Positions 37,577 to 60,503 of a DNA stretch of 64,000 nucleotides are shown here, piece after piece. Under the pieces are notes generated by a model. It was not told the origin of the DNA, searched no databases, and saw only the letters and a list, made by a program, of their open reading frames with translations. The stretch's first letter is position 1; the number at the start of each line of letters is the position of its first letter. Source of the DNA: Bdellovibrionia bacterium (GTDB taxonomy: Bacteria; Bdellovibrionota; Bdellovibrionia; Bdellovibrionales; JAGQZY01). Both the position numbers and the translations under genes were made by a program. Location of the stretch: positions 641,758 to 705,757 of the forward strand of contig JAUICP010000003.1 of NCBI GenBank assembly GCA_030427805.1, in the 5' to 3' direction.

Positions 37577-37652
37577 TGGGGTATCGCCAAGTTGGTAAGG
37601 CATCAGATTTTGATTCTGACATGCGCAGGTTCGAGTCCTGCTACCCCATCCA
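37577..37652 (+). tRNA. tRNA-Gln (anticodon UUG)
   Basis: The acceptor stem TGGGGTA (37577-37583) pairs with TACCCCA (37642-37648). The discriminator and CCA end are encoded (37649-37652). The anticodon stem-loop ATCAGA-TTTTGAT-TCTGAC gives anticodon TTG, and the T arm is CAGGTTCGAGTCCTG. It is the likely integration site of the element: the integrase gene lies 160 bases away, pointing toward it, and foreign genes begin on its 3' side. Integration into the 3' end keeps the tRNA intact. Confidence 0.95.
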
Positions 37653-37660
37653 TTTTAATA

Positions 37661-39065: not shown

Positions 39066-39283
39066 GATGAACCTCCTTTTTCGGCCCATGCACAAAGTTT
39101 CCATGGAGCAAACCTCACTAAGCTCCCCACATATAAATGAGGAACCTCGTTTCGCTTTACTCGTCGTTTTAGTGTTCGTACGGAGACTTGCAAAAATTTT
39201 GCAGCCTCATCGTAACCCCACAATGACTCCTTAGCTATTCCCATTTCAAAGAACACATCCCCTTTAGGGATCGGCTTAAGCAT
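39062..39283 (-). CDS. Excisionase-like HTH protein
   Basis: A 73-residue protein with a winged-helix DNA-binding domain of the MerR/excisionase type: WGYDEAAKFLQVSVRTLKRRVKRNEVPHLYVGSLVRFAPWKLCAWAEK. Small proteins of this kind set integration direction. The stop overlaps the integrase start (ATGA), so the two are coupled. The ATG at 39283 has only a poor ribosome site. A GTG at about codon 10 after GGGG, or the ATG at codon 14, could be the real start without losing the HTH. A palindrome lies upstream at 39321. Confidence 0.75.
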   Translation of the reverse strand: MLKPIPKGDVFFEMGIAKESLWGYDEAAKFLQVSVRTLKRRVKRNEVPHLYVGSLVRFAPWKLCAWAEKGGSS

Positions 39284-42647: not shown

Positions 42648-42648
42648 T

Positions 42649-43671: not shown

Positions 43672-44378
43672 TGGTAAGACCTCCGTAAAACAGTGCGATA
43701 ACCTTTTTTACCCTTAAAGCTTGCTCTGAAAGTAAAATCCACAGGCCTTTCTAGTTTTAAGAACATTCTAAACTTATAGTTTCGATACTTTTTAAACTTA
43801 GTCTCATCAGAAAAGACAACATCAAGAACTGTAAGATTTTTACCCGCACGTGTTGCCCAAAACTGTTCAGGCTTAGGATTAGACGCACTTTTAGGCAAAA
43901 TCAGACTACCATCCACCACATAGACATCGTTGAACTTGTGATAGAAGATTTTATTTAAGAAAACCTTCATATCACCCACATCAAACGAAACTGGATTAAA
44001 TTTACTGGTAGATTTTGGCTTTGCCTTTCTACTGAATGGAGCTTTCCAGTAAATTTTCACCAAGTCATCATAGGTGTTGCAACGACAAACTCTTAAGATA
44101 AAGCCAAAACGCCTATGCCCACTGTAAATAAACAAATTACTCGTCACTGTCGATAACGGCTGAATGGTCACATCATTGCCGGTGAACTCAATATTAAAAT
44201 AATTGGAGTTGCCACTAACAATTTTCTTCGGGCTATCAGCAAACTGCAAAACCGTAGAACGCCCCATAGCTAGAGTTATGACTTTCATGTCATTTGAATC
44301 CATTTCAATGGTTCTCACTTTTGCAATGGCCTGGGATGAGAAAAAACACACAAGAAGTAAAATTAGAGGTCTCATCAT
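43668..44378 (-). CDS. TraK/VirB9-like secretin-type protein
   Basis: A 236-residue exported protein with a signal peptide of about 19 residues (ending AIA). The mature part is all-beta, with the opening DMKVITLAMGRSTVLQFADSPKKIVSGNSNYFNIEF typical of the secretin-like N-domain in TraK and VirB9, then a C-terminal beta domain (FRMFLKLERPVDFTFRASF) that would contact the outer-membrane part of the channel. It lies between the TraE/VirB8-like and TraB/VirB10-like genes with four-base overlaps at each end, reproducing the E-K-B order of F-type systems. Confidence 0.8.
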   Translation of the reverse strand: MMRPLILLLVCFFSSQAIAKVRTIEMDSNDMKVITLAMGRSTVLQFADSPKKIVSGNSNYFNIEFTGNDVTIQPLSTVTSNLFIYSGHRRFGFILRVCRCNTYDDLVKIYWKAPFSRKAKPKSTSKFNPVSFDVGDMKVFLNKIFYHKFNDVYVVDGSLILPKSASNPKPEQFWATRAGKNLTVLDVVFSDETKFKKYRNYKFRMFLKLERPVDFTFRASFKGKKGYRTVLRRSYQ

Positions 44379-44968
44379 TTTTCAAACTCCGTAATTGAGT
44401 TGACGTAAAGGCCTTTCAGGTTCCACTTATTCGCTTTGTCTTTTAGAATCTCCAGGTGAACTTCTAATGGCTGAACGGCTTTGACCTTCTTACCGACTGA
44501 AACGACACGATCCATTTTCACTTCAACATGCTCATCTTTTAATTTGACTGACTGAACGACAATATCCTGAGAAATGGCGTTCTTCTTTACGAACTCCTTT
44601 GATTTCTCAAATTGACGGGTCATTTTCTTAAGAAGGCCGTAAGTGACAAACGGCGATACGTTTCTGGTTAGAGCTTCAATATTATAGTCTTTCCACTGAT
44701 ACCTTTGTAAAACAAAGTTCTTTGCTGCAAGCTCTACATCCTCTTCATTGATCTCAACACCTTTTCTTTCACCAATAAAGTACAGACGCTCTGACTCAGT
44801 AAGAGCCACAACAAGCGTGTCTTTATTTAAGAGATAAATGCAGACTCCAAGAAGAAGGAAGTTTGAAATCAACAACCCATAGATCACATATCTTAAATGC
44901 TTGATTAATAAATTAATTTTCACCCATTGGTTTACGGGCTCTAAACTCTTTGTTCCTAGTTTAATCAT
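44375..44968 (-). CDS. TraE/VirB8-like assembly protein
   Basis: A 197-residue protein with one N-terminal membrane helix (about residues 27-48, YVIYGLLISNFLLLGVCIYLL) and a periplasmic domain. The soluble part (AKNFVLQRYQWKDYNIEALTRNVSPFVTYGLLKK, then WNLKGLYVNSITEFEK) fits the NTF2-like fold of TraE/VirB8. The assignment also rests on gene order directly upstream of the TraK-like gene. Four-base overlaps join it to both neighbours. Confidence 0.75.
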   Translation of the reverse strand: MIKLGTKSLEPVNQWVKINLLIKHLRYVIYGLLISNFLLLGVCIYLLNKDTLVVALTESERLYFIGERKGVEINEEDVELAAKNFVLQRYQWKDYNIEALTRNVSPFVTYGLLKKMTRQFEKSKEFVKKNAISQDIVVQSVKLKDEHVEVKMDRVVSVGKKVKAVQPLEVHLEILKDKANKWNLKGLYVNSITEFEK

Positions 44969-45930
44969 TTTCTATTCTTCACCTCGTTAAATGATTTACT
45001 TCCAGACTGAAAATCACGATTCGATACCGCCCGTGATGCACTCATGGGTTTATCTCCTCGATTTCTTCTGGCTTCTTTAAAATTTTGAAACGCTCGCCCC
45101 GTAGACCTAAAACCGTAGCCTGCTGCTTGCTTTCCTTTGCCAGCAGCAAACTTTCCACCTTTTTTAAGTTGGTTCACAATCAGTCGTTGTGACGCCAAAG
45201 CTGGTGCTAATGCTAGACCTCCAGAGAAGGCTGCAAAGTCAGCAGACAAAAAGGCTTTTGTTGCGATGGGAATAAAAAGCATACTTGCGCCAATAAATAG
45301 GTTCATTACAATCAATAAAATTGAGTTGTAGTCACTTTCACTGGCTATAGGCGCATGGGTTGTCATTTTTAACAAAATCAAACCGAGCACCGCCCAGAGC
45401 ACCTTCCAGCACATGACCGTGCAAAGACTTCGATACAAACCCGTTGCAATCTTTGATGTTGATTGCGGAATATACGCCAAGATCATCAACGGTGAGATCA
45501 CAAAAAGAATCGCCCATGTGAAATGCACCAGTGCATCAGCAAAGAAGGCTCCTACATAAGCAAAGATGAATGAGATAAGAGCAAAGATCCAAATAATAGT
45601 CTCTTTAAACTTATACCAACTCACCTCTATACCTTGTATGAAGCCCCATGCTTCATTTAAAACCTCATTGATATGGGGTTTTGGACTGATGGTCTCAACA
45701 ATACCGTCACCCACGCTGGCTATCATGTGCATGACCTCTTCAAAACTCACTAAGAGTATGATGGAGATCGTTGCACGCTTAATAACCTTCATGGCATCAG
45801 GCTTGTCTTCCGGTAATTTAAAAAACTCTAAAATAATCATCAAGAGAGTCAGCGGAACAATGGCGAGCCAATAGACATCGACCAATCCCCCGCGAATTTC
45901 TCTACAAACTTCTGGCAGCCAATCGTACAT
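44965..45930 (-). CDS. VirB6-like polytopic channel protein
   Basis: A 321-residue protein with about six hydrophobic segments (including VYWLAIVPLTLLMIILEF, AFFADALVHFTWAILFVISPLMILAYI and ILLIVMNLFIGASMLFIPI). It ends in a basic, disordered cytosolic tail rich in Lys, Arg and Gly (QLKKGGKFAAGKGKQ onward). This layout, central membrane helices and a long polar tail, fits VirB6/TrbL proteins of the inner-membrane platform. The start shares its first base with the stop of the TrbJ-like gene upstream. Confidence 0.75.
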   Translation of the reverse strand: MYDWLPEVCREIRGGLVDVYWLAIVPLTLLMIILEFFKLPEDKPDAMKVIKRATISIILLVSFEEVMHMIASVGDGIVETISPKPHINEVLNEAWGFIQGIEVSWYKFKETIIWIFALISFIFAYVGAFFADALVHFTWAILFVISPLMILAYIPQSTSKIATGLYRSLCTVMCWKVLWAVLGLILLKMTTHAPIASESDYNSILLIVMNLFIGASMLFIPIATKAFLSADFAAFSGGLALAPALASQRLIVNQLKKGGKFAAGKGKQAAGYGFRSTGRAFQNFKEARRNRGDKPMSASRAVSNRDFQSGSKSFNEVKNRK

Positions 45931-46622
45931 TAGAACTTCGGTGTCCCAAATGTTGCGTTGAATGACTTAAAACTATTACCAAGATCACCAGTGATCTTTT
46001 GAAACTGGTAATTGGACTCTTTAGCTGTCTTATTATTCAAAGCGAGGGTTTCACTTTGAAGCTTAAGCATCTGTCCATTCACTTTCAAAAGCTGGTTTAA
46101 AGTATGAAGAATCGCCGCATTGGTCTGGACATTCACGCGAGCAGCCCCCTTTGGACTAGCCTGGCTTGCTTGCCTAGCAATACGGTTAGAGTTCCTCTCC
46201 TGGTTTTTGGCGTACTCTCTTAAAGAATTTGAAATCTTAATGCTCTCGGCCACAGTCTCATCATGAAGTTTTAAAAGAAGCTCCTCTTTTCCTTTGGGGA
46301 TTTCCCCATAGAGTCTCTCCACTTCATTCATGGCTCGTTTAAAAGATCTCAACTCCCCAAGAATCTTCTCATCTTCAATGGGAAAGTGCTCAAGTAAGCC
46401 AATAGCCTCGTTTAAACCGTCGTTAATGGATTTAATCATATCCTTGTGATGCTTGGCATTGTCATAGACCATCTTAAGCTGCTGATACTGCTTCACTGCT
46501 TGAGCGATCAGCTTAATAAGGTATGGGACCATGATTGCGGCATCACCGCCAAAAAAGGCACGGGATTTCACCGGACTAAAGCTAATAAAAAACGCACACA
46601 ATGGGATAACTAGAATCTTCAT
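45930..46622 (-). CDS. VirB5/TrbJ-like periplasmic protein
   Basis: A 230-residue exported helical protein with a signal peptide (about 1-21, ending SRA) then FFGGDAAIMVPYLIKLIAQAVKQYQQLKMVYDNAKHHKDMI. The predicted helices and Gln/Asn-rich C-terminal coiled coil are typical of TrbJ/VirB5 proteins, which cap or nucleate the pilus. It lies five bases downstream of the C-terminal ATPase fragment and directly upstream of the VirB6-like gene. Confidence 0.78.
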   Translation of the reverse strand: MKILVIPLCAFFISFSPVKSRAFFGGDAAIMVPYLIKLIAQAVKQYQQLKMVYDNAKHHKDMIKSINDGLNEAIGLLEHFPIEDEKILGELRSFKRAMNEVERLYGEIPKGKEELLLKLHDETVAESIKISNSLREYAKNQERNSNRIARQASQASPKGAARVNVQTNAAILHTLNQLLKVNGQMLKLQSETLALNNKTAKESNYQFQKITGDLGNSFKSFNATFGTPKF

Positions 46623-46627
46623 ATTTT

Positions 46628-47692
46628 TTAAAGACCTCCCTCTGTATTTATGTGTTCAACAATTTTTTCTAAAACTTCTAGATGAGAAAGCTTAGGATGC
46701 TTTCTCTTAAACTCTTCGATGACCGTTTTGTCTTTTGGGTCTGTGGTGCAGATCCAGTAAGACATTAGGTCGGGTTCTATTTTTAAAATGGCTCTTTGCT
46801 CATCTTGAATATAAAGATGCTCTGAAAACCGCCCCTTCTCTGAACGAAGAGATTTAACAGCATCAAGTTCAGCATCATTTAATGACAAGATTTCTTGAAA
46901 CTCATTCCAGTCCACTCCCCGCTGCTTTAAGATGATTCTAGACGGAGTATTCTGCATAATCGCAGCGGCAATTTCAGGATCAAACATAAAGTCTTTGATA
47001 CTTTGTGAGATCCCCCATATGCCGCCATAAAATTTGCGCATTGTACGGTAACACTCAATGATAAACTGAGCGGCACTCTCGTTTTGAAGAACCTTCCAGA
47101 TCTCATCAATACAGAGTAAATACCTCTGACTAGAATTTCTGGAAGCCTCATTCATGATGTGCTCAGTTAAAATGAGAAGCAGTACCCGTTGAAGATCTGG
47201 ATAAACATCAAGACCCTTCACCTCAATGGCAACAAGCGGCTTATCAAGATGAATGTTTGTCTTTCCATCAAGCAATCTTCCGTAGGCGGTGTCACCCGTC
47301 CACGAATACAAGATGTCAGAGTATTTCCTCATCTCTGAAAGCCGGTGGTTTTCTAAAATCTTCCTAAAATCAGTAAGTGTCGGCGAGCCCTCTTTATATT
47401 GATCGTAGGTGTCAGCAATGGCTTGCTCCAACAAAGCTTTTTCCCTTTTAGGAAGCCCTTTTGAATCATCTTCTTTACAGATAGACTCTATGACTCCCAA
47501 GAGAAGCTTCTTCTTTGTTGGGCTTACCTGCTTTTCACCCTTATTCAGTTCAAAGGCATTAAGCACTAAACCACTCTCTAAGTTTAGATCAATAAACTGG
47601 CCACCAAGAGCATCAACCATTCCACGGCTTGAGGCACCGTTGTCGATCCAGACCACTTTTGACTTTGAAACGCTTTCATCAACCACACTCAT
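46628..47692 (-). CDS. TraC/VirB4-like ATPase, C-terminal half (split gene)
   Basis: This 354-residue frame continues the ATPase domain whose P-loop ends the upstream frame. It opens with KVVWIDNGASSRGMVDALGGQFIDL, the strand and loop that normally follow Walker A in VirB4/TraC. It contains Walker B YLLCIDEIWKVL near residue 191 and GGIWGISQSIKDF with the sensor Gln. The ATG at 47692 overlaps the upstream TGA (ATGA) and has its own GGAG seven bases upstream. The run AAAAA before the stop also permits a -1 slip that would fuse the halves to about 819 residues, the usual family length. Confidence 0.85.
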   Translation of the reverse strand: MSVVDESVSKSKVVWIDNGASSRGMVDALGGQFIDLNLESGLVLNAFELNKGEKQVSPTKKKLLLGVIESICKEDDSKGLPKREKALLEQAIADTYDQYKEGSPTLTDFRKILENHRLSEMRKYSDILYSWTGDTAYGRLLDGKTNIHLDKPLVAIEVKGLDVYPDLQRVLLLILTEHIMNEASRNSSQRYLLCIDEIWKVLQNESAAQFIIECYRTMRKFYGGIWGISQSIKDFMFDPEIAAAIMQNTPSRIILKQRGVDWNEFQEILSLNDAELDAVKSLRSEKGRFSEHLYIQDEQRAILKIEPDLMSYWICTTDPKDKTVIEEFKRKHPKLSHLEVLEKIVEHINTEGGL

Positions 47693-49086
47693 TTTTGATC
47701 TCCAATAAACTGCAAAATAAGTTGGTTGATGGTAAATGACTTCCCACTTCCTGACGAACCGATGATAAAACCATTCCAGTTAGGGAGCTCCGGTGAAAAT
47801 GGATCAATTGAAACCAGTACATTATCCCTATTCGGAACAAGGCAAGTTGGCTTCGGATTCCCTCTCCAGTATGAAAAACAAGGAGCAAGATGGGAGAGGT
47901 TTGATGACTTCATTTTCTTAGGACGATTGGTTTTACAAAGCCCTGGTGTCGTCTTTAAAAAAGTATCAAAAGTTGCAAAAGTCTCTACCAACCCTTCAGA
48001 GTGGTTAAGCTTTTTAAAAGTTCTTAAAACAGTATTGCACTTTTCTTCTAACTCATTTTCTGTCTGTCCCCAGATAATGATATTAAGATCGGCTTCCACA
48101 ATTTTTTCTGAACTCTCAATAAGCTCTGATAGAAGCCCTTCAATCTGCCCAAGCTTTGACTCACTCTCTAGATCACTCACATTATTTTGACCACTGGCCA
48201 TGGAGTGAGTAAGCCTTCGCTTAAGCTGCAAGGAGCTATACTCTTTAGACTGATCGCAAACTCTCACCACTTGGCTGATCCAACAGTGAAAAGGTAAACC
48301 CAAAAGACCATTGATAAGACCAGAGGAGGTCTCATCGGGAAGTGTTTTTAGACTGATAGTTCTAAACTTATACTTTCCGATTTCAATGTGGTTTTTGGTG
48401 AGAGCTATGTCACTCAACAACACCTGTGATAGGAGCGAGCTTGGAGAAAAGACCCGTGGCCCTTTAAGTTTTGGAGCCTCGTGCTCTTCTGAGCGGTCCA
48501 GATTAAAATGCTCGTAAAGGAGCCTGAACCACTCTTTTTCACTTAAAGGTTTACCAAAAACACCGCAGTCTTTGAGCGACGACTCAAGTTGATTAACAGA
48601 CCGCTCAAAATCTTCATGGTGAACCCGAAACTCTGACTCCTCCACCTGGAGATACTCTTTTTCTTTTTGAAAAAGCTTCTGCTTCTTAAAAGCGTAAGGC
48701 CTTCCCTTTAGAAAAAGATAAATTTCTGGGTTAAAGAACTTTCCCTTAAGACAGTTATCTTTTAGATGCTTTTTCCTAGCATTTAAAATGATGTCATAAT
48801 TTGCAATGGGACAGCTTTCCGAAAGTCCAATATGCTCATTAACAACACCCTCAACTGTTGGTGTAAGTCGATAAAGAAACTGTAACGACATCCCCTCATC
48901 AAGACTTGTTACCAGATTCTCTAGCCTTCTTGTAAACTGACTCACCTCTTCATCAGTGGAACAAGAAATGTCTTTTCCACTAATTTTAAAGCCTGCCCCT
49001 AGCGAACCATCTCCAAAGACAAGCCTGTCTTCAAAAAAGTGCCAGAGGTTTAAAAACTCACCAATATTATCAGGACTCAACGACAA
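47689..49086 (-). CDS. TraC/VirB4-like ATPase, N-terminal half with Walker A (split gene)
   Basis: A 465-residue frame starting at a TTG at 49086 (AAAGGAT eight bases upstream) and overlapping the VirB3-like stop. It contains the N-terminal domain of TraC-type pilus ATPases (LWHFFEDRLVFGDGSLGAGFKISG opening, CFSYWRGNPKPTCLVPNRDNVLVSIDPFSPELPNWNGF near the end). It stops 15 residues after the P-loop GSSGSGKS at about 443-450. Ending a polypeptide between Walker A and Walker B is very unusual. The TGA is part of the ATGA junction with the next frame. Confidence 0.85.
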   Translation of the reverse strand: MSLSPDNIGEFLNLWHFFEDRLVFGDGSLGAGFKISGKDISCSTDEEVSQFTRRLENLVTSLDEGMSLQFLYRLTPTVEGVVNEHIGLSESCPIANYDIILNARKKHLKDNCLKGKFFNPEIYLFLKGRPYAFKKQKLFQKEKEYLQVEESEFRVHHEDFERSVNQLESSLKDCGVFGKPLSEKEWFRLLYEHFNLDRSEEHEAPKLKGPRVFSPSSLLSQVLLSDIALTKNHIEIGKYKFRTISLKTLPDETSSGLINGLLGLPFHCWISQVVRVCDQSKEYSSLQLKRRLTHSMASGQNNVSDLESESKLGQIEGLLSELIESSEKIVEADLNIIIWGQTENELEEKCNTVLRTFKKLNHSEGLVETFATFDTFLKTTPGLCKTNRPKKMKSSNLSHLAPCFSYWRGNPKPTCLVPNRDNVLVSIDPFSPELPNWNGFIIGSSGSGKSFTINQLILQFIGDQK

Positions 49087-49390
49087 TTTCTTTTATCCTT
49101 TCGTTTTCTTTGCTTAAATTGCTTCCAGCGCAGAACACCCCTGGAAAGATGGAGAAGCGAATCAAGTCTTGAAGGTAGCGATCAGGCTTTCCCCGCTTTC
49201 CCCAGTAGATGACTCCAGCTAAAAGGGCGGGGAGCCCGAAAACCATCACCCCCGCCATGTTTGTTTGCCCAAAGATCAGGTTCATAGTGGAGGCCAACGC
49301 CCCCACCCCGATCACATCAAATAACTCCATGCCAAAAAACTTGATCTGAGTGTCAAGGTTTCGGTGAACAATCGACCGATCAACACTCAT
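49070..49390 (-). CDS. TraL/VirB3-like membrane protein
   Basis: The ATG at 49390 overlaps the pilin stop (TAATG). The longer frame to 49462 would lie inside the pilin gene. The 106-residue protein opens MSVDRSIVHRNLDTQIKFFGMELFDV, the typical pre-helix region of TraL/VirB3. It has two adjacent membrane segments (IGVGALASTMNLIF, MAGVMVFGLPALLAGVIYW) and then the conserved GKPDRYLQDLIRF. VirB3-type proteins pair with the VirB4/TraC ATPase, whose gene follows with a 17-base overlap. Confidence 0.82.
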   Translation of the reverse strand: MSVDRSIVHRNLDTQIKFFGMELFDVIGVGALASTMNLIFGQTNMAGVMVFGLPALLAGVIYWGKRGKPDRYLQDLIRFSIFPGVFCAGSNLSKENERIKEIVVES

Positions 49391-49692
49391 TAGTTTAAAA
49401 CCCCTTGAAGCCAACCGATTATGTACGGCGCGAGAAATCCGATCCCACTCCCGATCAAGCAAAACCAGATTTTAGATTTTGCATTCTCATTACCCGTGGC
49501 AGCTAAGATTGCTGCGATCACAAGACCAAGAACACTCATCACTGGTAAAATAAATGTGGAAAACTTTTGCTGAAGGTTTTCCATCTTATTTTCAAACCCT
49601 GATTTCACCACACCTGCTTCTGCAAGTTCCGGCATCACGAATACAACCACCATTAAAACGCCAAACAATATTAACGACTCATACTTTCTCAT
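49390..49692 (-). CDS. TraA/VirB2-like pilin
   Basis: A 100-residue protein with a signal peptide (about residues 1-26, ending AEA) and two hydrophobic helices (FSTFILPVMSVLGLVIAAILAATG and IWFCLIGSGIGFLAPYIIGWL), the standard hairpin of conjugative pilins. The mature length of about 74 residues is usual. It precedes the TraL-like gene, as in F-type operons (A-L order), with overlapping stop and start. Confidence 0.82.
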   Translation of the reverse strand: MRKYESLILFGVLMVVVFVMPELAEAGVVKSGFENKMENLQQKFSTFILPVMSVLGLVIAAILAATGNENAKSKIWFCLIGSGIGFLAPYIIGWLQGVLN

Positions 49693-50072
49693 AAGCTTAC
49701 AGCCTCCTTTGTTTGAGATTGAGTTGGACCTTGTTCTTTAAGACTCAATACTAATAATTTGGAAAATGGCGCTGCATGAATCACAACCTCATTGTTGGTG
49801 CAATTCAAAAAACCATCTCCCTGGAAGAATCGACTTCCCTTTCCACCTTTTTCTTTGACCGACACAAGCCTGTACCTTAAGTGATCAGCGTCTCCACCCA
49901 TGCACTTTAAGAAGTAGTTGTTGTCTGGAAAAAAGTTTAAGATCAGTCGATAGTCCCCACTATCTTCATTGTAGTAAGCCACTCCCGCCATATCTCTGTT
50001 TTCAGTCACTGGGCAGTGCCACCACAAATAAAAAAGTCCTTTTTGTCTGTTCAATTCTTTTGCGCTATTCAT
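49689..50072 (-). CDS. Hypothetical protein of the transfer operon
   Basis: A 127-residue soluble protein with no signal peptide, rich in aromatic residues (GLFYLWWHCPVTENRDMAGVAYYNEDSGDYRLILNFFPDNNYF). No domain recognised. It overlaps the pilin start by four bases and shares a base with the preceding small frame, so it is a genuine member of the operon. Being early in the operon and cytoplasmic, it might be regulatory, which is a guess. Confidence 0.6.
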   Translation of the reverse strand: MNSAKELNRQKGLFYLWWHCPVTENRDMAGVAYYNEDSGDYRLILNFFPDNNYFLKCMGGDADHLRYRLVSVKEKGGKGSRFFQGDGFLNCTNNEVVIHAAPFSKLLVLSLKEQGPTQSQTKEAVSL

Positions 50073-50206
50073 TAATTTATTTCTCCTCGATATAATTTTT
50101 TAATTTTTAGCAATTTGGTTTTAATTTGTTTACGGTACTTTTTTTCGTAAGCAGTTTTTCCTTTTTGTTTTTCACATTTTTGGTTAATCATTTCTAAATC
50201 TTCCAT
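50072..50206 (-). CDS. Small lysine-rich protein (44 residues)
   Basis: A short frame from an ATG at 50206, with GAGG eight bases upstream, ending in a TAA that shares its last base with the next start (TAATG). About a third of its residues are Lys or Arg (for example KQIKTKLLKIKKLYRGE), suggesting nucleic-acid binding. The stop-start overlap and the coupling of all neighbours argue that it is real. There is no other evidence. Confidence 0.45.
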   Translation of the reverse strand: MEDLEMINQKCEKQKGKTAYEKKYRKQIKTKLLKIKKLYRGEIN

Positions 50207-50244
50207 TGGTTCATCCTCTTCAGACGCTTCTTTTAAACTCTTCT

Positions 50245-50463
50245 TCAATTTATCTCTGAGCGTCTTCGGCCCATGCTTAAATCAAAAATTTCAACAAGGT
50301 CTAATGTGCGATCCACTCTTTCTTCTAGGTGATCCACATAGTCCCCGATTCTTTTCTTTCTATTTTCTACAAACCCACAGGCACGACACCTGTACTGAGA
50401 TTGGGATCTTTCACAAGCCCTCTCCCCACAACGCAAACAACGTTTTTGCTCACACTTACTCAC
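50245..50463 (-). CDS. Small zinc-ribbon protein, first gene of the transfer operon
   Basis: A 72-residue protein starting at a GTG (50463) with AAGGAGG eleven bases upstream. The four cysteines of CLRCGERACERSQSQYRCRACGF form a rubredoxin-like zinc ribbon. A helical tail follows (IGDYVDHLEERVDRTLDLVEIFDLS), which may mediate dimerisation. Its position as the first gene after the long control region suggests a regulatory role; I do not recognise a family. Confidence 0.62.
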   Translation of the reverse strand: MSKCEQKRCLRCGERACERSQSQYRCRACGFVENRKKRIGDYVDHLEERVDRTLDLVEIFDLSMGRRRSEIN

Positions 50464-50525
50464 TGTTTTTTAACCTCCTTGGTTTTTGAGACATCATTGC
50501 CTCGCCCTTCTCTATAAGCAGGGAT

Positions 50526-50542
50526 GGGACCAAACGTGCCAA
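50526..50542 (-). promoter_or_regulatory. Possible degenerate sigma-54 promoter of the transfer operon
   Basis: Read leftward the sequence is TTGGCACGTTTGGTCCC. The -24 half matches the consensus TTGGCACG perfectly. The -12 half has CC where GC is expected at the right spacing. It is 63 bases upstream of the first transfer gene and about 170 bases downstream of a palindrome, a workable enhancer distance. The -12 mismatch makes it weak. Confidence 0.35.
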
Positions 50543-50706
50543 ACATGTAAGTGATTGAAATTGTTGAAACCTTTTTTTAGACAAGTGACTCACGAACGGG
50601 TCGTGACCCAAAAAACAAAGGTTTTTTTGCGAGAAGAAAATTAAAGGGAAAAGAGCGAACCAGATTTGGTTCAAAATTTTTGTATTGCTATTTATTTACA
50701 ATAGGG

Positions 50707-51407: not shown

Positions 51408-51411
51408 TTTT

Positions 51412-52068: not shown

Positions 52069-53745
52069 TTAGCACAACACCCCCTTCGGTATAACCTCAA
52101 TAGATCGTTCCTGACACCATTTTGTTAGGGCTGGACTGTTGTAATTGTTGGTCACTAAATAAGCCATGCTGCCAATTCCGAGGTCATCAATGAGCTGTTC
52201 TCCGGTTGTCGTATTAGGGCCGAGATCACTGTCAAAGATGAACAGGTGTTCTGAAAAGTCATCGTGGTTGTCGAACCATTCAGTAAACTCCTCTTGGTTT
52301 TTAAACGCCAAGAAGTTGGCTTCAGAGTTCTCTTTTTCAAGGAGTCTTTTCCACTTCCGATGGACACCTTTTTCATCATCAAGAAGCACTACTGATTTCG
52401 CCGACGGAATATCTATAGTTGGCAATTTCCAAAGGTCAAAACCTAATTCAAAGACTGTCTTACCTTCTTCACTACTCGCAAGATTAAAGTGTCCACCCCA
52501 CGATTCAATAAAACGCTTTCCATGATAAAGCCCGTAGCCGGTTCCATTTTCCTTTCCATCGGTGAAACCACGATCAAAAACATCTTTTTGGATTTCCTGC
52601 TTAATTCCTTTACCATCATCGGTAACCAAGACTTTTAGTATCTGATCTTCAATCTCAAGGTTGATCTCAATATTTTTAGCACCTGCTTCAATAGAGTTAT
52701 TCATCATATTGGAGAGCACGGCTCGAAGCTCTGGCCCCACAACTTCAATAAACGATTTTTTGGCAACACTTTTATAGCTGAGCTTGATCGCTGGTTTGTC
52801 TTTAGAGTTTTGAAGCTCAAGATTTTTATTCTCAACAGCAATTTCAAAAGCATTCGCCACGTTCACCTTGGTTTTCTTCTCATTCTCTTTTTCGAGATAT
52901 TCATAAAAAGTTTCATCGGAGGTGATAAGCTTAACCTTATCCACATCAGGGGTGTGATCAGCAATTTTTACCATCACAGCTTTAATATCCGTTGAGAGCT
53001 GCTCTATTCTACTCTTCTGCCTCTCGGATGAGAACTCACCTGATTTGATAACGTCTAGGGTTTGCTGAATTGATTTAATATTATGACCAATGCTCAAATT
53101 ATGTTCCAGAATAGCTCCAGCAACGGCTTGCTTTTCCTTTGACTGGGTGTGGTCTTCGATGTGTTTTTTAATTTTATTAAGCTCTCGTATTTCAAAGTCT
53201 TCATCGGAAGATAAGTCGTTTTCCAACGGAGCAAGAACATCTTTTGATAGGTCTCTTTGAATTCTGTAGATCGTAAAGAACACAATTCCAAGGAGTAGAA
53301 AGATAATACTGTTAATGATTACAAGAGCTGGAGTGATACTTAGATTGCTCAGGTAAAAATAGAACTTGTAATCAGTAAAACCAGAGGGCACCACCTCCAC
53401 GACGGACTGAAAACTTTTTGTGGTCGGCGGGTTTGGACAAGAGCCAAAGTTCAATGGCTGCTGCATCACCACCTGAGCCCCTTTACATGCTAATATTGAC
53501 TCAACGCCAAGCTCCTCAATGGCTAATTGGAATGAGGCCTCTAAAACTGGTCTGTTACCTTGCTCTATTCCGATAGTCGCAATTGTTTTAACAAGACTCT
53601 TAACCGACTTTGCTTGGTCGCTTACAAACTTATTGTGGGTGTATATGACAAAACCCACCTGAACCAAGGCAACCGACACTCCAACCACGAGGAGTGGGAG
53701 TTTCGTTTTCTTAAAAAACCACTGGCTCAAGCTGATCTTTTTCAT
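52069..53745 (-). CDS. Hybrid sensor histidine kinase with C-terminal receiver
   Basis: A 558-residue kinase with membrane helices near 17-36 and 138-160 flanking a periplasmic sensor domain of about 100 residues that has two cysteines. A dimerisation region contains IGHNIKSIQQTL (His221) and another His at 215, either of which could be phosphorylated. The ATPase domain is intact: NMMNNSIEAG (N box), VTDDGKGI (G1), GFTDGKENGTGYGLYHGKRF (G2). A receiver-like domain follows (VVLLDDE, FIFDSDLG with Asp near 505, and VIPKG with Lys near 554). It is the last gene of the operon led by a sigma-54 regulator and starts on the stop codon of the binding-protein gene. Confidence 0.88.
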   Translation of the reverse strand: MKKISLSQWFFKKTKLPLLVVGVSVALVQVGFVIYTHNKFVSDQAKSVKSLVKTIATIGIEQGNRPVLEASFQLAIEELGVESILACKGAQVVMQQPLNFGSCPNPPTTKSFQSVVEVVPSGFTDYKFYFYLSNLSITPALVIINSIIFLLLGIVFFTIYRIQRDLSKDVLAPLENDLSSDEDFEIRELNKIKKHIEDHTQSKEKQAVAGAILEHNLSIGHNIKSIQQTLDVIKSGEFSSERQKSRIEQLSTDIKAVMVKIADHTPDVDKVKLITSDETFYEYLEKENEKKTKVNVANAFEIAVENKNLELQNSKDKPAIKLSYKSVAKKSFIEVVGPELRAVLSNMMNNSIEAGAKNIEINLEIEDQILKVLVTDDGKGIKQEIQKDVFDRGFTDGKENGTGYGLYHGKRFIESWGGHFNLASSEEGKTVFELGFDLWKLPTIDIPSAKSVVLLDDEKGVHRKWKRLLEKENSEANFLAFKNQEEFTEWFDNHDDFSEHLFIFDSDLGPNTTTGEQLIDDLGIGSMAYLVTNNYNSPALTKWCQERSIEVIPKGVLC

Positions 53746-55274
53746 TAGCCACCGACAGGACGGAATGTAGTAAACCGTCCCCCTTCTCTGCTGAGGTAGT
53801 TTTTCTTAACTTGGATACGGTCATTTCTTAAAATCACCATATCTTTTAAGAACCCAATGTGGATAAACGGAACTTCTCTTAAAACCGCTTCAGAAACTTT
53901 TTTGTAGTGTGGATCAACCTTGTCAAAATCTAAAATCTTGCGCCCCTCTTCTAAAAGATCAGTAACTTTTTTTCTGTGGAGCATTGGTGAGCTGATCGCG
54001 CCTTTTAATCCGATGGCATGATAGATGCCATCGGGATCACCGCTAAAAACGCTTAGGTACATTGGCAGAACATCTGGCTCATACCCTTTGTAATACATTT
54101 GCAAAAGATCACGTCCAGGAACTTCCTTGGTTTTATCAGAGAGCTTTACTCCTTTTTTAATCAAATAATCATGTAACCACTTCGTTCCTTTTGTGTGTGC
54201 AAAATAAAGTGGATGTTTTTGAGTGGCTTTTACAAATGATTCGAGATGAGGCTTACCCTCAGAAATGATTTCATCGACTTTCTCTTTAGAAATATTACCT
54301 GCTTGAAGAGGAAGAAAAATCTGTGGCTCGATCTGGCTCTTCATCCGATCTTTTCTTGGTATGTCTTCACTGGTGAAGCCATCGAAAAACAGATATTGAA
54401 AAGCTTTTCTGTGGTTTGGGTTATTTAGCAGACGACCCTTTTGCCCATTTAAAACGAGTGTCATGTGACGGTTCTCAGTGCCTGAAACGCAACTAATATT
54501 TTTATCACCACAAGAATCAACCTGAGCCACTTCCGCAAAGGCATAGAGATCAATCTCACCTTTTTTTAGGGCCTCTCTAGATTTGTCGAACGGAACGACC
54601 TTCACATTAACTTTTTCATAATAGTAGTCATCAGGGTTATACTGATTTCTTGTCAGCATCACCTCTTCTTTATTGATACTATTAATCACATAAGGGCCGG
54701 TCCCGATGTATTTATTACCCTCCTTAATGAAGGCCGCCATTCGCGTTCCCCCTAGATGACTAAGAGCCATTCTAAAAGGTTTTTTGAAAGTAACTTTTAA
54801 GGTTTTATCATCGACAGCTTCAACACCGGAAACACCACCGCTCTTTTTATGATTTTCAAAGCCTTCAATCTTATAAAGAACATCAAGAAGGCTGTTATTG
54901 GCTGACTTTGAGTCGAGCTTTAAGCTGTGCTCCCAGGAGTTTTTGTAGTGTTTTGCAGTCAGAGCCACACCATTAGAGAACTTTCTGGAGGTGTCGATGG
55001 TAAAAGTGAAAACCTTTTTATCATCGCTCACTGTCCAGGACTTAGCCCCCATTCCATCAATAGTGCCGCTCTTACCTAAAATGACGAGTGGCTCAAACTG
55101 GTTGTGCATAAGAGCATCTGCATAAGCTGTGTGCTGAAGAGAAGGAACCAAATCGTTCCATTCTCCAGGGTAGCCAACTTTTAGAATCATCTCTTTTTTC
55201 TCCTGTGGTTGATTCTTGGTGCAAGCACCAAGACCAACTGCAATCATCAAAGATACAAATAAAACCTTAAACAT
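53745..55274 (-). CDS. OppA/DppA-family solute-binding lipoprotein
   Basis: A 509-residue lipoprotein with signal MFKVLFVSLMIAVGLGAC, lipidated Cys18. The body matches family 5 extracellular binding proteins, which usually bind peptides: LKVGYPGEWNDLVPSLQHT, NQFEPLVILGKSG, FTFTIDTSRKFSNGVALTAKHYKNSWEHSL, GTGPYVINSI. No permease or ABC ATPase gene is nearby. Its place between a radical SAM/small-protein pair and a sensor kinase therefore suggests that it presents a ligand to the kinase or handles the modified peptide. It shares its stop with the kinase start (TAATG). Confidence 0.88.
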   Translation of the reverse strand: MFKVLFVSLMIAVGLGACTKNQPQEKKEMILKVGYPGEWNDLVPSLQHTAYADALMHNQFEPLVILGKSGTIDGMGAKSWTVSDDKKVFTFTIDTSRKFSNGVALTAKHYKNSWEHSLKLDSKSANNSLLDVLYKIEGFENHKKSGGVSGVEAVDDKTLKVTFKKPFRMALSHLGGTRMAAFIKEGNKYIGTGPYVINSINKEEVMLTRNQYNPDDYYYEKVNVKVVPFDKSREALKKGEIDLYAFAEVAQVDSCGDKNISCVSGTENRHMTLVLNGQKGRLLNNPNHRKAFQYLFFDGFTSEDIPRKDRMKSQIEPQIFLPLQAGNISKEKVDEIISEGKPHLESFVKATQKHPLYFAHTKGTKWLHDYLIKKGVKLSDKTKEVPGRDLLQMYYKGYEPDVLPMYLSVFSGDPDGIYHAIGLKGAISSPMLHRKKVTDLLEEGRKILDFDKVDPHYKKVSEAVLREVPFIHIGFLKDMVILRNDRIQVKKNYLSREGGRFTTFRPVGG

Positions 55275-55283
55275 CTTTCCCTC

Positions 55284-55634
55284 TTATTCTGGTGGAATAG
55301 CACTTAGAGCCTGACCGACACTTGAGGCTGTAACTGTTGGGCTATGAATATCACTGATGAACTCTTTTGTCAGACGGCTTCTATGACGGCTATACGGTTC
55401 TGTTGATAAGTCTTGAACATCAGAAACCTCATGACGATCAAGAAAGTCATAATACTTCTCTGGCATAGTGCCCTCATCAAGACGGCGCATCATCTCACCT
55501 TCATAATCGTAGTCTGTTGGCCCTGGGTCATTGCCCCCACCAAGCTTATTTGCAAAATCAGATGCAAATGCTACTGAGCTTATGGGCATAAGTGACAACA
55601 TCCCTAATATTTTTCTTCTTGTTTGCTTTTTCAT
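55284..55634 (-). CDS. Small protein with Tat-like signal, candidate substrate of the radical SAM enzyme
   Basis: A 116-residue protein whose N-terminus TRRKILGMLSLMPISSVAFA has the twin-arginine pattern (RR-x-I-L) and an AFA cleavage site. The mature part is polar and low in hydrophobic core residues: a Gly/Pro/Asp segment (GGGNDPGPTDYDYEGE), then MPEKYYDFLDRHEVSDVQDL and a C-terminus ending AIPPE. The lack of a recognisable fold and the tight coupling to the upstream radical SAM gene (ATGA overlap, GGGGAGG six bases before the ATG) suggest it is modified by that enzyme and then exported folded. That role is inference. Confidence 0.6.
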   Translation of the reverse strand: MKKQTRRKILGMLSLMPISSVAFASDFANKLGGGNDPGPTDYDYEGEMMRRLDEGTMPEKYYDFLDRHEVSDVQDLSTEPYSRHRSRLTKEFISDIHSPTVTASSVGQALSAIPPE

Positions 55635-56710
55635 GCAATCCTCCCCTTTTGTAAGGCCACTGGTTCAATCCAACAACCTTGGTCTTTTTCTAAAAAACTA
55701 CCCGTGAGAGCAAAGCTGATATTTCTATCGCCTCCACACCTTGAGTAGTACATACAATCACCACAGCCTTTGATATTTCCTTTCCTTAAATTTTTCAGAA
55801 CTGGGTGATTAAAAAATAAATTCTTAAGTCCATCTTTTAAGACATTACCGACTGTGTAATCAGCTCGGCTCGAAACCTTCATGTTGCCTTTGTAGTCGAT
55901 AACGATTCCCTGAAAGCCCATTCTCCCGTTGTGACCCAAGGTTGGATCAATCAAATGAAAGAGTGGACTGCTGGTAGCTGTTTTTACACCTGTCTTTTTT
56001 GATGTGTTTAAAATTGAAATCAGAGCGTCTCGAAGCTCTGTCCCATAGAGTGAGTCATCCTTACCACTTTTTTGAAGCTCCTCACCATAGCCTTGTGGGA
56101 TAAATCTTGTAAAATTCATCGAATCAAGACCATGCTTTTTTGCCATATCAAAAAACTCTGGAATCCACTGCGCTGTATTTTTTGACAGGATGCCCAAGAT
56201 GTTTGTTTTCATCCCGTATCTTTTGGCAAGCTTAGCTCCCCTAATGGCTTTATCAAAGTTACCCTCACCGCGAACGGCATCGTGCCTTCTTGCATCAGGT
56301 CCATCAATTGAAATCTGAAACTCCACTTCATATTGAGAGAGCATCTCTAAAAGCTTATCATTAAGTTTCACTCCGTTTGTGAGAATCACAAACTTTGGAG
56401 TCTTCCAAAGCTCATTCGCTCTTTTTAAAATTGAATAGAGATAAGGGCTGATTGTCGGCTCCCCACCACAAAGAAGAATACTTGGCTTCATTTTTAGCTC
56501 ATCAAGCATTGCTTTGTACTGATCTAAAACCTCAAACCAACCGTTAAGATCAAGAGCTCCCGTATTTTTATGATTTGAGTGATAACAATGAGTGCAACGA
56601 AGATTGCAAGCATTGGTAATATCAAGCTGGATGGACATGGTTTCTTGCCCACCGATGGCTTTTACAGCCTTTGTTAAAAAATAATCCTCAAACTTTTTAA
56701 TCAACCTCAT
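55631..56710 (-). CDS. Radical SAM/SPASM-domain enzyme
   Basis: A 359-residue enzyme with the radical SAM cluster motif CNLRCTHC (Cys35, Cys39, Cys42), the GGEPT motif near residue 92, and an SPASM-type C-terminus (CGDCMYYSRCGGDRN, then a last Cys in DQGCW) that binds auxiliary clusters. SPASM enzymes typically modify peptides or proteins, for example as RiPP maturases or sulphatase activators. The only likely substrate encoded nearby is the 116-residue Tat-type protein. It overlaps the genes on both sides by four bases, so stoichiometry is tightly coupled. Confidence 0.88.
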   Translation of the reverse strand: MRLIKKFEDYFLTKAVKAIGGQETMSIQLDITNACNLRCTHCYHSNHKNTGALDLNGWFEVLDQYKAMLDELKMKPSILLCGGEPTISPYLYSILKRANELWKTPKFVILTNGVKLNDKLLEMLSQYEVEFQISIDGPDARRHDAVRGEGNFDKAIRGAKLAKRYGMKTNILGILSKNTAQWIPEFFDMAKKHGLDSMNFTRFIPQGYGEELQKSGKDDSLYGTELRDALISILNTSKKTGVKTATSSPLFHLIDPTLGHNGRMGFQGIVIDYKGNMKVSSRADYTVGNVLKDGLKNLFFNHPVLKNLRKGNIKGCGDCMYYSRCGGDRNISFALTGSFLEKDQGCWIEPVALQKGRIA

Positions 56711-58122
56711 GACACAGCTCCAGCATGAAGTTTATAGCCCCACTCAGAGAGTTTTCTTTGAAGTGAGGAGTTTGGAATAGAAAGAGCTTTTGAAGCCGCC
56801 CTTAGAGATGAAAAAGATCTTACTTTTGAAATCAAAAATTCTTTTTCTCTCTCTTCAAACTCTTTTGCTAAGAGATCTTTGAACTGCGGGTAAGATAGAT
56901 TGTTGGCTTTACTTTTATCAAAGACTTTTGGATCAAGATGTTGAGGCTTGATTTCTTCCTCACTCGTTGAAATCAAGAGCCTTCCGATCATGTTTTCAAG
57001 CTCTCTGATGTTTCCAGACCACTCATAGGCTTTTAGGTACTGCAATGTTTTATACATCATCTTTTTATTTCGCCCAGCAATATGCATTTCCATGAAGTGA
57101 GTGACAAGTGGCGAGATGTCTTCTGTCCTTTCTCTTAAGGCTGGTACATTGATTGGGATGTGATTAAGCCTATAAAAGAGATCCTCTCTAAATTCTTTTG
57201 ATTCAATTTTGGCTTCAAGATCCACATGGGTTGCAGCAATCACTCTCACATCAACGGGCACTGGTTTATTTGATCCAACAGGCTCAATCACTTTTTCTTG
57301 TAAAACTCTTAGGAGTTTTGCCTGAAGGTCCGTTCTCATCTCACCAATTTCATCAAGAAAAATTGTTCCACCAGTAGCCGCCTGAAACTTTCCAAGTCTT
57401 TTTCTGTCAGCTCCGGTGAAGGCACCCTTTTCATGACCAAAGAGTTCTGATTCTAAAAGCTCTGCTGGAATGGCTGCACAGTTGATACTGACAAATGGTT
57501 TATTTTTTCTAGAGGAGTGGTCTTTAACAGCTTTTGCAATAAGCTCTTTCCCTGTGCCTGACTCTCCACGGATAAGAACCGTTGATCTATCCCCACCATT
57601 CTCTGAAAGGGTTAAAATCTTTTTAGCGATATGAGCCATTGGTGTGGACCAACCCACCATTCCAATTTTTTGAATCCATACCGAGTTATCAAGATGCTTT
57701 TGGTTTACGTTTTGAGTTTTGGTGACAACACGGCTTAGTTCATCAAACTTCACACAGTTGGCTCTGATTTTTTTAATGATCTCATCAAAGGGCTCATCTT
57801 TTTTAATAAACCCACTCACCCCTGCATTGATACAGGCCACGGGAACCTCTTGGGTCATGTCGCCCGTGCAGATCAAAACTAGAAGCTTTGGATTGATTTT
57901 TAAGACTTCTTTAGCAACATCCACCCCATTGAGTTCCTGACCCTCAAAGCTGTAATCAAGAACAAGGACGGCATAATCAAAGGGATTCTTTTGAACGAGC
58001 CTGATGACCTCAGAGGCCTCACTTGTGAATACCGGCTCAATATCCAAGTGGACGCCAAGCTTGTCCCTAAAGTTGTCTAGAACGCTATTTTGATCGTCTG
58101 CGATCAGGATCTTGTAATTCAT
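56707..58122 (-). CDS. Sigma-54-dependent response regulator (NtrC family)
   Basis: The ATG at 58122 follows GGGAGGGAGCC. The frame extending to 58182 has no ribosome site and would cross the promoter. The 471-residue protein has a receiver (IADDQN, phosphoacceptor Asp56 in VLDYSFEG, Lys in FIKKDEP). Its AAA+ domain has Walker A GESGTGKE near 187-194 and the intact GAFTGA loop near 232, required to contact sigma-54. A C-terminal Fis-type HTH follows (LRAASKALSIPNSSLQRKLSEWGY). It leads a five-gene operon and is likely phosphorylated by the kinase at the end of it. The TGTCCCA palindromes are its best candidate sites. Confidence 0.95.
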   Translation of the reverse strand: MNYKILIADDQNSVLDNFRDKLGVHLDIEPVFTSEASEVIRLVQKNPFDYAVLVLDYSFEGQELNGVDVAKEVLKINPKLLVLICTGDMTQEVPVACINAGVSGFIKKDEPFDEIIKKIRANCVKFDELSRVVTKTQNVNQKHLDNSVWIQKIGMVGWSTPMAHIAKKILTLSENGGDRSTVLIRGESGTGKELIAKAVKDHSSRKNKPFVSINCAAIPAELLESELFGHEKGAFTGADRKRLGKFQAATGGTIFLDEIGEMRTDLQAKLLRVLQEKVIEPVGSNKPVPVDVRVIAATHVDLEAKIESKEFREDLFYRLNHIPINVPALRERTEDISPLVTHFMEMHIAGRNKKMMYKTLQYLKAYEWSGNIRELENMIGRLLISTSEEEIKPQHLDPKVFDKSKANNLSYPQFKDLLAKEFEEREKEFLISKVRSFSSLRAASKALSIPNSSLQRKLSEWGYKLHAGAVS

Positions 58123-58192
58123 CTGGCTCCCTCCCTTTTTAAAAGCCTTCAAAAGCAGCTCTATCCGCCCGCCCGTCCACATCTCGGACTAG

Positions 58193-58209
58193 AGCATGGT
58201 CTGTGCCAA
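58193..58209 (-). promoter_or_regulatory. Sigma-54 promoter of the signalling operon
   Basis: Read leftward the element is TTGGCACAGACCATGCT. It matches the sigma-54 consensus YTGGCACGRNNNTTGCW at all but two positions, with the essential GG and GC exactly ten bases apart. The start codon at 58122 is about 70 bases downstream. Three palindromes lie about 60, 160 and 200 bases upstream, at enhancer distances. Autoregulation by the encoded activator is likely. Confidence 0.75.
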
Positions 58210-58257
58210 GGCTGAGATCTAAATAAACAGCAGTAGAGCCCTTTTCAGCCTGCTCCG

Positions 58258-58275
58258 TGTCCCACAGATGGGTCA
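58258..58275. promoter_or_regulatory. 18-bp palindrome, copy 2
   Basis: TGTCCCA-CAGA-TGGGTCA. Both halves fit TGWCCCA/TGGGWCA. It is about 50 bases upstream of the sigma-54 -24 element at 58193-58209. Confidence 0.75.
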
Positions 58276-58358
58276 TTTTCAAAGTGAGCTATTTGAGCAA
58301 ATGGTGCTAACTGGTTGGAATTGAATTACAAAATGGAACTTGATGAGAAATCTGTGAC

Positions 58359-58376
58359 TGGCCCATGGGTGGGACG
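58359..58376. promoter_or_regulatory. 18-bp palindrome, copy 3
   Basis: TGGCCCA-TGGG-TGGGACG. It has the same seven-four-seven layout with two departures from the consensus. It lies between the sigma-54 promoter on the left and the rightward OLD gene. Confidence 0.6.
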
Positions 58377-58400
58377 TTTAAGCTCTACCCCCTTAAAACC

Positions 58401-58418
58401 TGACCCATTTTTGGGACA
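58401..58418. promoter_or_regulatory. 18-bp palindrome, copy 4
   Basis: TGACCCA-TTTT-TGGGACA. It is copy 2 in the opposite orientation, with perfect halves. It is 163 bases upstream of the OLD nuclease start and may serve both divergent promoters. Confidence 0.75.
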
Positions 58419-58580
58419 AGCATGCTTAATAGGTAATCTAATTCTGTTTAGCTCACAAGAAAGTGTGTGGTTTTTACCTGGGTTTTGAAAAGGTTTCAGG
58501 GGAAATTCTGTACAAATTAAATCTATTTACTTAAAATCTTGGGATTTATCGTAAGCTGACAAAACAAAAGGGCAAAACCC

Positions 58581-60374: not shown

Positions 60375-60430
60375 ATTTTCTTAGAGCGACGGGTGCTTAA
60401 AATATAAGCTGTTTGGTTTTTCACCAAAAA

Positions 60431-60448: not shown

Positions 60449-60503
60449 TTTGCCCCAAGTATTATTCATTGAAGCTTATCACATTAGTGGCTAAACTTCG
60501 TGC

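Follow-up and report, generated by a model that had tools for sequence, protein, structure and literature searches.

A candidate peptide-signaling cassette on an integrative element of a Bdellovibrionia bacterium and its putative link to transfer genes

The stretch of DNA analyzed here, referred to as the window, comprises 64,000 nt of a Bdellovibrionia bacterium (GCA_030427805.1, contig JAUICP010000003.1, positions 641,758-705,757). On an element of about 30 kb in tRNA-Gln, it carries a cassette of five genes, which encode an NtrC-type response regulator, a radical SAM enzyme, a secreted small protein of 116 amino acids (aa), a family-5 substrate-binding protein (SBP) and a sensor histidine kinase. 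The results favor the view that this cassette is an element-borne peptide-signaling circuit, which probably controls the cassette itself and the transfer operon of the element. An earlier, sequence-only reading had proposed that the enzyme modifies the small protein, that the product is exported by Tat and binds the SBP, taken to be a lipoprotein, and that the kinase signals to a regulator of transfer genes. The conserved unit, the pairing of SBP and kinase without a transporter and the regulation of transfer genes are supported, whereas Tat export and the lipoprotein as general features, and conjugation as the only role, are not.

As shown in Table 1, the five predicted open reading frames (ORFs) were confirmed in place, all on the minus strand, together with their close spacing, in which adjoining genes overlap by 4, 4 and 1 bases or sit 9 bases apart. 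The linkage is not due to chance, because the same gene order recurs in related loci. The regulator reaches 230.7 bits with the Pfam family Sigma54_activat and 46.9 bits with Response_reg, and the presence of both GAFTGA and a receiver identifies it as a sigma-54 activator of the NtrC type; with the NCBIfam LuxO model it scores 269.7 bits, which is under the cut-off of 800.

In a set of 147 genomes, 8 contain the small protein, among them that of the host. Its profile detects 19 places in 15 of the 368 genomes of the phylum (Bdellovibrionota), and the profile of the enzyme detects 21 places in 16 of them, where four genomes (G000, G007, G052 and G103) hold two cassettes each. One enzyme place (G318:C113, locus L073) ends within the enzyme and is possibly the other half of G318:C132. 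At the other 20 places, the next ORF after the enzyme carries the conserved signal segment and is shortened by a stop in L015 and L016, by the contig end in L048 and by Ns in L074. The order of enzyme, small protein, SBP and kinase is kept wherever the contig continues; in L015, the SBP is displaced by an inserted 476-aa ORF without a Pfam match (1938-3368), which separates it from the truncated small protein, and an ORF of equal length lies at 406-1836 of L016. The regulator is of the NtrC type at 14 of the 20 places (12 cassettes of the class including the window, L043 in part, and L044) and of the REC-Fis type at two (L071, and L073 counted with G318); no regulator was identified beside the enzyme in L046, L048, L072 and L074, the upstream 204-aa ORF of L048 lying outside the scan.

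The expectation that the small protein does not occur apart from the enzyme was borne out, as the enzyme adjoins 17 of the 19 homologue places. The remaining two, in G116 and G196, are weak matches with no cassette genes beside them, and were rejected because they look like chance. Phyla beyond that of the host were covered only by searches of plasmid, viral and genome contig collections, the latter two using short conserved peptides. No match to the enzyme was obtained by tblastn at 1e-30 among 72,556 plasmid records, the enzyme alignment A3 had no match in the viral contig collection, and the small protein matched one locus only in the genome contig collection, on the same contig as L024.

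At thresholds of E 0.1 for Pfam and E 0.01 for NCBIfam, the small protein matches no family. It begins with a signal segment of the consensus L[AS]x[LMI]P[ILVF]xx[IV][AS][FYH]A, which is followed by a variable mature part with a tail rich in G, S, P and T. The mean pairwise identity of the 16-residue segment in 13 distant members is 0.478, in comparison with 0.166 for 102 other signal-like segments from ORFs of the same loci (sd 0.013; no more than 0.252 in 5,000 draws). The pattern used to locate the segment names P as well as positions +1, +4 and +7, four columns out of 16, so that the invariance of P and of the I/V four residues on is partly by construction; the other 12 columns give 0.407 versus 0.115 (maximum 0.204 of 3,000 draws, 109 segments). 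The mature parts are related within the class (mean identity 0.321 versus 0.179 shuffled, 7 members). Among 8 distant members they are near random (0.264 versus 0.225 shuffled), and the signal segment still reaches 0.453. The last 12 residues show a G/S/P/T fraction of 0.50 versus 0.19 elsewhere in the mature part (16 members, the three cut-short members being omitted from the count), and the shortest complete small protein has 49 aa. The simplest reading is a common leader, which would be recognized by a common enzyme, and then a variable product. The twin-arginine signal from which Tat export had been proposed is real in the window ([ST]RRxIL), but it is present in only 4 of the 19 homologues; Tat export was rejected as a family trait, although the window's own motif fits it.

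The proposed link between the small protein and the SBP gains support from L021, a second element in the genome to which the window belongs, and L022, from another genome of the same genus, in which the two appear to have been exchanged jointly. At the DNA level, the members of this pair share 92.2% identity over the promoter region, 92.8% over the regulator, 91.2% over the enzyme and 97.1% over the signal segment, the protein sequence of which is identical; identity falls to 73.2% for the mature small protein and 76.2% for the SBP, and is 89.4% for the kinase. The drop starts about 15-25 residues past the signal and stops about 30 residues short of the SBP end. The dS values are 0.32, 0.40 and 0.46 for the regulator, enzyme and kinase, and 1.30 and 1.92 for the small protein and the SBP, where several SBP windows are saturated. 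The SBP is not simply fast-evolving, because the ratio of SBP to enzyme protein divergence is 2.99 in L021/L022, in comparison with 0.98-1.36 in the other 44 pairs. We read this as one block, in which the signal and its putative receptor would have been exchanged as a unit.

The upstream regions were scanned using the well-known sigma-54 promoter consensus. Each of the 12 class cassettes for which upstream DNA is available has a sigma-54-type site a short distance ahead of its first gene (window, L014, L024, L016, L017-L023 and L074; L015 is cut by the contig end). In L016, L017, L018, L023 and L024, the longest regulator ORF begins upstream of or across the promoter, and the aligned conserved start was used. 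Single sigma-54 matches are weak alone (9 in the window versus 1-6 in five shuffles at the same threshold), and the promoter argument therefore rests on the position in 12 of 12 loci. Upstream of this promoter, dyads of the form TGwCC-N8-GGwCA were found by pattern in 11 of the 12 cassettes, three at similar distances in nine cassettes and one each in L017 and L074. Measured back from a point slightly within the first gene, the distances form two sets, of about 320/233/145 and 310/267/165 bases, and are shifted in L016 owing to its longer stretch. The two cassettes of G000, and likewise those of G007, have dyads of different types (TGACC or TGTCC), by which the circuits may be kept apart.

A dyad matrix built solely from 26 of the cassette sites was applied to eight stretches: those upstream of operons of the type IV secretion system (T4SS) or adjoining transfer operons in the window, L014, L024, L017, L018, L023 and L021, and the matching stretch of L022, which is a near copy of L021 on a contig that ends before any T4SS gene. 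The matrix detected 16 sites in 2,223 bp versus 0.37 expected (Poisson 4e-21, an optimistic value because the stretches were hand-delimited after earlier scans had shown sites). A GG-N10-GC element precedes the transfer operons of the window, L014, L024, L018, L023 and L080. The T4SS operon of G057, which starts about 8 kb beyond the kinase, is preceded by two dyads and TTGGCACAACTCCTGC. L018 and L023 have a short ORF on the opposite strand between the promoter and the gene for the coupling protein, and a single transcript is not certain there. The host encodes sigma-54. The exact dyad occurs 16 times in the host genome versus 10 times for the reversed control and is clustered only at the two cassettes; judged from this distribution, the regulon looks local to the elements. 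The shared dyads and sigma-54-type promoters at the cassette and at the transfer operons thus support the proposed regulation of transfer genes.

The integrase and the attachment repeats at the tRNA gene mark the DNA around the cassette as an integrative element, the self-transfer of which is likely. Of the nine class cassettes that have a long flank to one side or to both, eight (window, L014, L024, L017, L018, L023, L021 and L019) have T4SS genes within 25 kb, the short contigs G001, G003, G008 and G098 being left out of this count. Conjugation as the only role is not supported, as outside the class no cassette contig carries a VirB4 match, most of these contigs being short.

Table 1. Features of the cassette, its upstream sites and the host element (window coordinates unless noted)
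Feature	Position	Strand	Basis or remark
NtrC-type response regulator	56707..58122	-	Receiver, sigma-54 AAA+ with GAFTGA, C-terminal HTH-like end (HTH_50 below cut-off); Pfam
Radical SAM enzyme, SPASM/twitch-like C-terminal cysteines	55631..56710	-	Pfam and alignment
116-aa secreted small protein, candidate signal precursor	55284..55634	-	Conserved signal segment, variable mature part
Family-5 SBP, candidate signal receptor, lipobox LGAC	53745..55274	-	Pfam, fold, lipobox
Sensor histidine kinase	52069..53745	-	Two membrane helices, periplasmic domain, HNIxS box, HATPase, receiver-like C-terminus
Sigma-54-type promoter of cassette, TTGGCACAGACCATGCT	58193..58209	-	Similar site in 12/12 class cassettes with upstream DNA
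Upstream dyad 1, candidate activator site	58257..58276		Pattern/matrix scan
Upstream dyad 2, candidate activator site	58358..58377		Pattern/matrix scan
Upstream dyad 3, candidate activator site	58400..58419		Pattern/matrix scan
Sigma-54-type promoter of transfer operon, TTTGGCAC and GG-N10-GC	50517..50543	-	Same arrangement in L014, L024
Dyad upstream of transfer operon, 11.5 bits	50585..50604		Matrix from cassette sites only
Weaker dyad upstream of transfer operon, 8.4 bits	50706..50725		Matrix from cassette sites only
Left attachment repeat (tRNA-Gln 3' end)	37635..37656	+	Exact 22-bp repeat
Right attachment repeat	67620-67641 (extended coordinate, same contig, 3.6 kb beyond window end)		Exact 22-bp copy, 30 kb right
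Tyrosine integrase of element, beside tRNA gene	37815..39104	-	Pfam Phage_integrase
Putative T4SS/transfer operon	41145..50463	-	Pfam
VirB2/TrbC-like pilin	49390-49692		In transfer operon; Pfam
TraC-like	47689-49086		In transfer operon; Pfam
VirB4-type P-loop	46628-47692		In transfer operon; Pfam
TrbI/VirB10	42649-43671		In transfer operon; Pfam
FtsK-like	41145-42647		In transfer operon; Pfam

The enzyme reaches 82.8 bits with Radical_SAM (PF04055), and in the 10 members of alignment A3 both the CxxxCxxC motif (C35, C39, C42) and the C-terminal cysteines C316/C319/C325/C346 are invariant. The SPASM assignment is weaker than had been stated, with 15.1 bits versus a cut-off of 21.5 for PF13186, beside the four invariant C-terminal cysteines. 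None of the NCBIfam maturase cut-offs was reached among the best 25 of 78 matches, which include TIGR04053, GrrM, WgkB and PapB; the top score among the matches listed was 117 bits versus 395 (TIGR04053).

The SBP matches SBP_bac_5 with 127.2 bits versus a cut-off of 32.4, and its predicted model (pLDDT 88) matches solved family-5 proteins over the whole fold. The 50 structural matches listed have Z values of 28.9-33.5, among them AapF, a binder of a signaling molecule (33.5), DppA (32.3), OppA (32.0) and PrgZ (4faj, 29.5); matches less than 1 Z apart are tied, and the fold does not tell the ligand. The model thus resembles peptide binders, PrgZ included, and the best matches also hold non-peptide binders. 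The claim that the SBP lacks transporter genes was upheld at the cassette loci, where permease and ATPase genes were judged and where the kinase directly follows the SBP in every locus whose contig continues. The lipoprotein, on the other hand, was rejected as a family trait, since only 4 of 17 SBPs carry a lipobox by rule (window, L018, L020 and L047); those of L021 and L022 have a GVGC cysteine, and in the remaining 11 the N-terminus is hydrophobic over a stretch but shows no lipobox.

In the kinase, which reaches 61.8 bits with HATPase_c, H221, two periplasmic cysteines and the HATPase motifs are invariant in 14 members. Its description as a hybrid kinase was stronger than the receiver score of 13.5 bits versus a cut-off of 30.2 allows, but a receiver at residues 451-557 is backed by a conserved D-x-D-[LF]-G stretch and the predicted fold. 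No receiver is visible in L046, L047 and L074. The structural matches of the kinase lay on its core and do not bear on the periplasmic domain.

The circuit proposed from these results would proceed as follows. The enzyme would use the conserved N-terminal segment to recognize the small protein and would modify it; the modified product would be exported, through Sec for the majority of copies and perhaps through Tat for the clade of the window. A fragment of the mature part, possibly the tail rich in G, S, P and T, may then bind the membrane-anchored SBP, a step supported by the joint exchange of the mature part and the SBP. The loaded SBP would set the activity of the neighboring kinase, as LuxP does for LuxQ, and the kinase would phosphorylate the NtrC-type regulator. 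The regulator, in turn, is predicted to bind the TGwCC-N8-GGwCA dyads, which are present at both places, and to activate the sigma-54 promoters of the cassette and the transfer operon. In its fullest form, this account describes a Gram-negative conjugative element with its own quorum circuit, in which a secreted, radical-SAM-modified peptide is sensed by a tethered family-5 SBP that has a kinase and a sigma-54 regulator as partners in place of a transporter, and in which the pherotype is changed by block exchange of the mature peptide and receptor while the leader and enzyme are kept, with four genomes holding two circuits. This fullest form is tentative, and its probability is judged to fall a little short of one half.

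An inducing peptide with positive feedback is favored because the cassette promoter would also drive the precursor gene, and we lean modestly towards it over an inhibiting self-marker such as PhrI on ICEBs1. The same circuit with the opposite sign, where the peptide would be a self-marker shutting transfer off among carriers (like PhrI of ICEBs1, or iCF10), nevertheless takes a sizable minority of the confidence placed in the circuit. The maker and the receptor lie on one element, so that the signal would report carriers; a LuxPQ ligand makes the kinase a phosphatase (excerpts of PMC5467912), and PhrI provides a precedent (excerpts of PMC6540685). The sigma-54-type promoter with the same dyads before the cassette fits positive feedback better, which is a weak argument against the self-marker.

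An alternative which does not need a signal from the element is that the SBP and the kinase sense an outside peptide of prey, host or recipient, and that the enzyme and small protein are otherwise employed, for example in stabilizing the receptor or in making a co-ligand. In its favor, the hosts belong to Bdellovibrionia, in which peptides from prey could plausibly serve as ligands, the ligands of family-5 SBPs are diverse, and some of the best structural matches bind something other than peptides. This explanation is nonetheless unlikely, as the precursor co-occurs with the SBP wherever the contig continues and was, by our reading, exchanged jointly with it.

It is also conceivable that the signal peptide itself is the pheromone, freed by cleavage as in Enterococcus plasmids, where the signal peptide of a lipoprotein ends in cCF10, and that the mature protein is a carrier. 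The conservation of the segment far above that of other signal-like segments, the near-shuffled mature parts, the shortest complete small protein of 49 aa and the presence of PrgZ among the structural matches agree with this idea, and the same conservation is equally explained by an enzyme recognition site. A signal common to all elements would confer no specificity, and in L021/L022 the signal is identical while the mature part and the SBP differ together; this exchange block lowers the idea to one that is about as unlikely as an outside peptide. Finally, a housekeeping cofactor or envelope-sensing two-component operon traveling with mobile DNA, for which the dyads near T4SS genes would be incidental, accords with the out-of-class cassettes away from T4SS matches, the REC-Fis regulators in two loci and the lack of a T4SS match on the one long side of G052:C142, but is very improbable in view of the dyad enrichment of 16 versus 0.37 and the T4SS genes within 25 kb in eight of nine class cassettes.

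Several observations, in addition to the optimistic p-value, weigh against the signaling circuit or its tie to conjugation. Among the class cassettes, L074, the thirteenth, shows no regulator adjoining the enzyme, L020 has no dyad by pattern, the L018 stretch scored no dyad, though extended palindromes are visible, and the transfer promoter of L017 and L021 has GT instead of GC at -12. The four out-of-class loci scanned (L044, L046, L071 and L072) have no sigma-54-type site before the first gene. The exchange block comes from one genome pair, of which one genome is in 260 contigs; the identity of L021 and L022 dips once more further downstream, within a gene that is unrelated (15.1-15.9 kb), and dN/dS is low throughout (0.05-0.09), with no sign of positive selection. 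No relaxase was recognized by Pfam in the element genes scanned, which were not all genes of the element. The ninth class cassette with a long flank, G052:C142, has no VirB4/TrwB match on its 33-kb upstream side, its only long side, and none was found on the cassette contigs (5 to 32 kb) of G207, G210, G318, G327, G331 and G341. On the 581-kb contig of G347, only a weak coupling-protein match was found, 210 kb off, and neither G347 nor G331 has a VirB4 match anywhere in the genome. The circuit may be older or wider than conjugation control.

The cassette resembles several known systems in part. In Enterococcus pCF10, the host Opp permease imports the peptide, which binds PrgX inside the cell, and the inducer derives from the signal peptide of a chromosomal lipoprotein; to our knowledge, no radical SAM enzyme is involved. 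Here, in contrast, a kinase, an NtrC-type regulator and sigma-54-type promoters would replace import, and the regulator of the operon is not an intracellular RRNPP protein as for PrgZ/PrgX. Common to both are an element-encoded OppA-like surface receptor, small peptide precursors and conjugation control (excerpts of PMC7117660 and PMC6540685). The structural match of the SBP model to PrgZ agrees with this likeness. LuxP belongs to a different binding-protein family. The arrangement of a periplasmic binding protein, a membrane hybrid kinase and a LuxO-type regulator is nevertheless that of Vibrio LuxP-LuxQ-LuxO, which, unlike the cassette, uses the ligand AI-2, a LuxU relay and small-RNA targets rather than conjugation (both from excerpts of PMC5467912). 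By analogy, the cassette would work like LuxPQ-LuxO fed by an element-borne peptide, with a purpose like that of PrgZ or PhrI, as a member of neither group. In ICEBs1, an unmodified pentapeptide reaches an intracellular RRNPP receptor after Opp import. The RapI-PhrI pair of that element shares with the cassette a self-signaling peptide on an integrative conjugative element (excerpts of PMC6540685). A candidate radical SAM/SPASM maturase is shared with the Grr/Osc cyclophane peptides, although the enzyme scores only 59.6 versus a cut-off of 310 with the GrrM/OscB model TIGR04261. The Grr/Osc systems likewise combine a precursor with an orphan binding protein, GrrP, and we know of no kinase, regulator or T4SS in them. 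In the agr, comQXP and com pherotypes, the signal and receptor are exchanged together while the rest of the pathway is common; the receptor there is a kinase or an intracellular regulator, whereas here it would be a separate binding protein.

Further features were observed around these genes. The VirB4/TraC homologue is split into two overlapping genes in the window (47689-49086 and 46628-47692) and also in L014 and L024, and is a single gene in L021. A short Cys-rich protein, zinc-ribbon-like by eye, opens the transfer operon (window 50245-50463, L014 9461-9676, L024 16941-17159, L023 13363-13598). Small predicted exported proteins are encoded between the kinase and the T4SS genes (window 50898-51849, L018 13923-14435, L023 13612-14043), and relatives of the product of window 51412-51849 sit behind the transfer promoter in L018 and L023. 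Before the transfer promoter, long palindromes join dyad half-sites to TTTCA half-sites (L018 13711-13930, L023 13086-13362). A strong dyad of 18.4 bits without a clear sigma-54 site lies at 60430-60449 of the window, before 60504-61388 (DUF7878), possibly another regulated gene. High-scoring dyads also occur inside genes (window 38991, 43294 and 55931; L024 9715; L075 9654; L076 12692), and more clusters are present at L024 4477-5025, in and beside a 192-aa HTH gene, and at L016 3046-3542, roughly similar in place upstream of the cassette. Divergent from the cassette, an OLD-like AAA/TOPRIM protein (58581-60374, plus strand) is cargo of the element and possibly an anti-phage nuclease.

No description of this gene combination was found in the open-licence PMC literature, as judged from titles and the starts of abstracts. 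In Gram-positive bacteria, conjugation is known to be controlled by peptide pheromones (excerpts of PMC7117660 and PMC6540685). If the proposed circuit is true, it would be a Gram-negative counterpart with another logic, namely a modified peptide, periplasmic sensing and sigma-54 output. It would also suggest a function for a radical SAM subfamily below the listed NCBIfam cut-offs and for orphan family-5 SBPs, and the exchange of ligand and receptor together with the activator dyads provides sequence-level tests applicable to new genomes. For predatory-type bacteria, it would help explain when their elements move.

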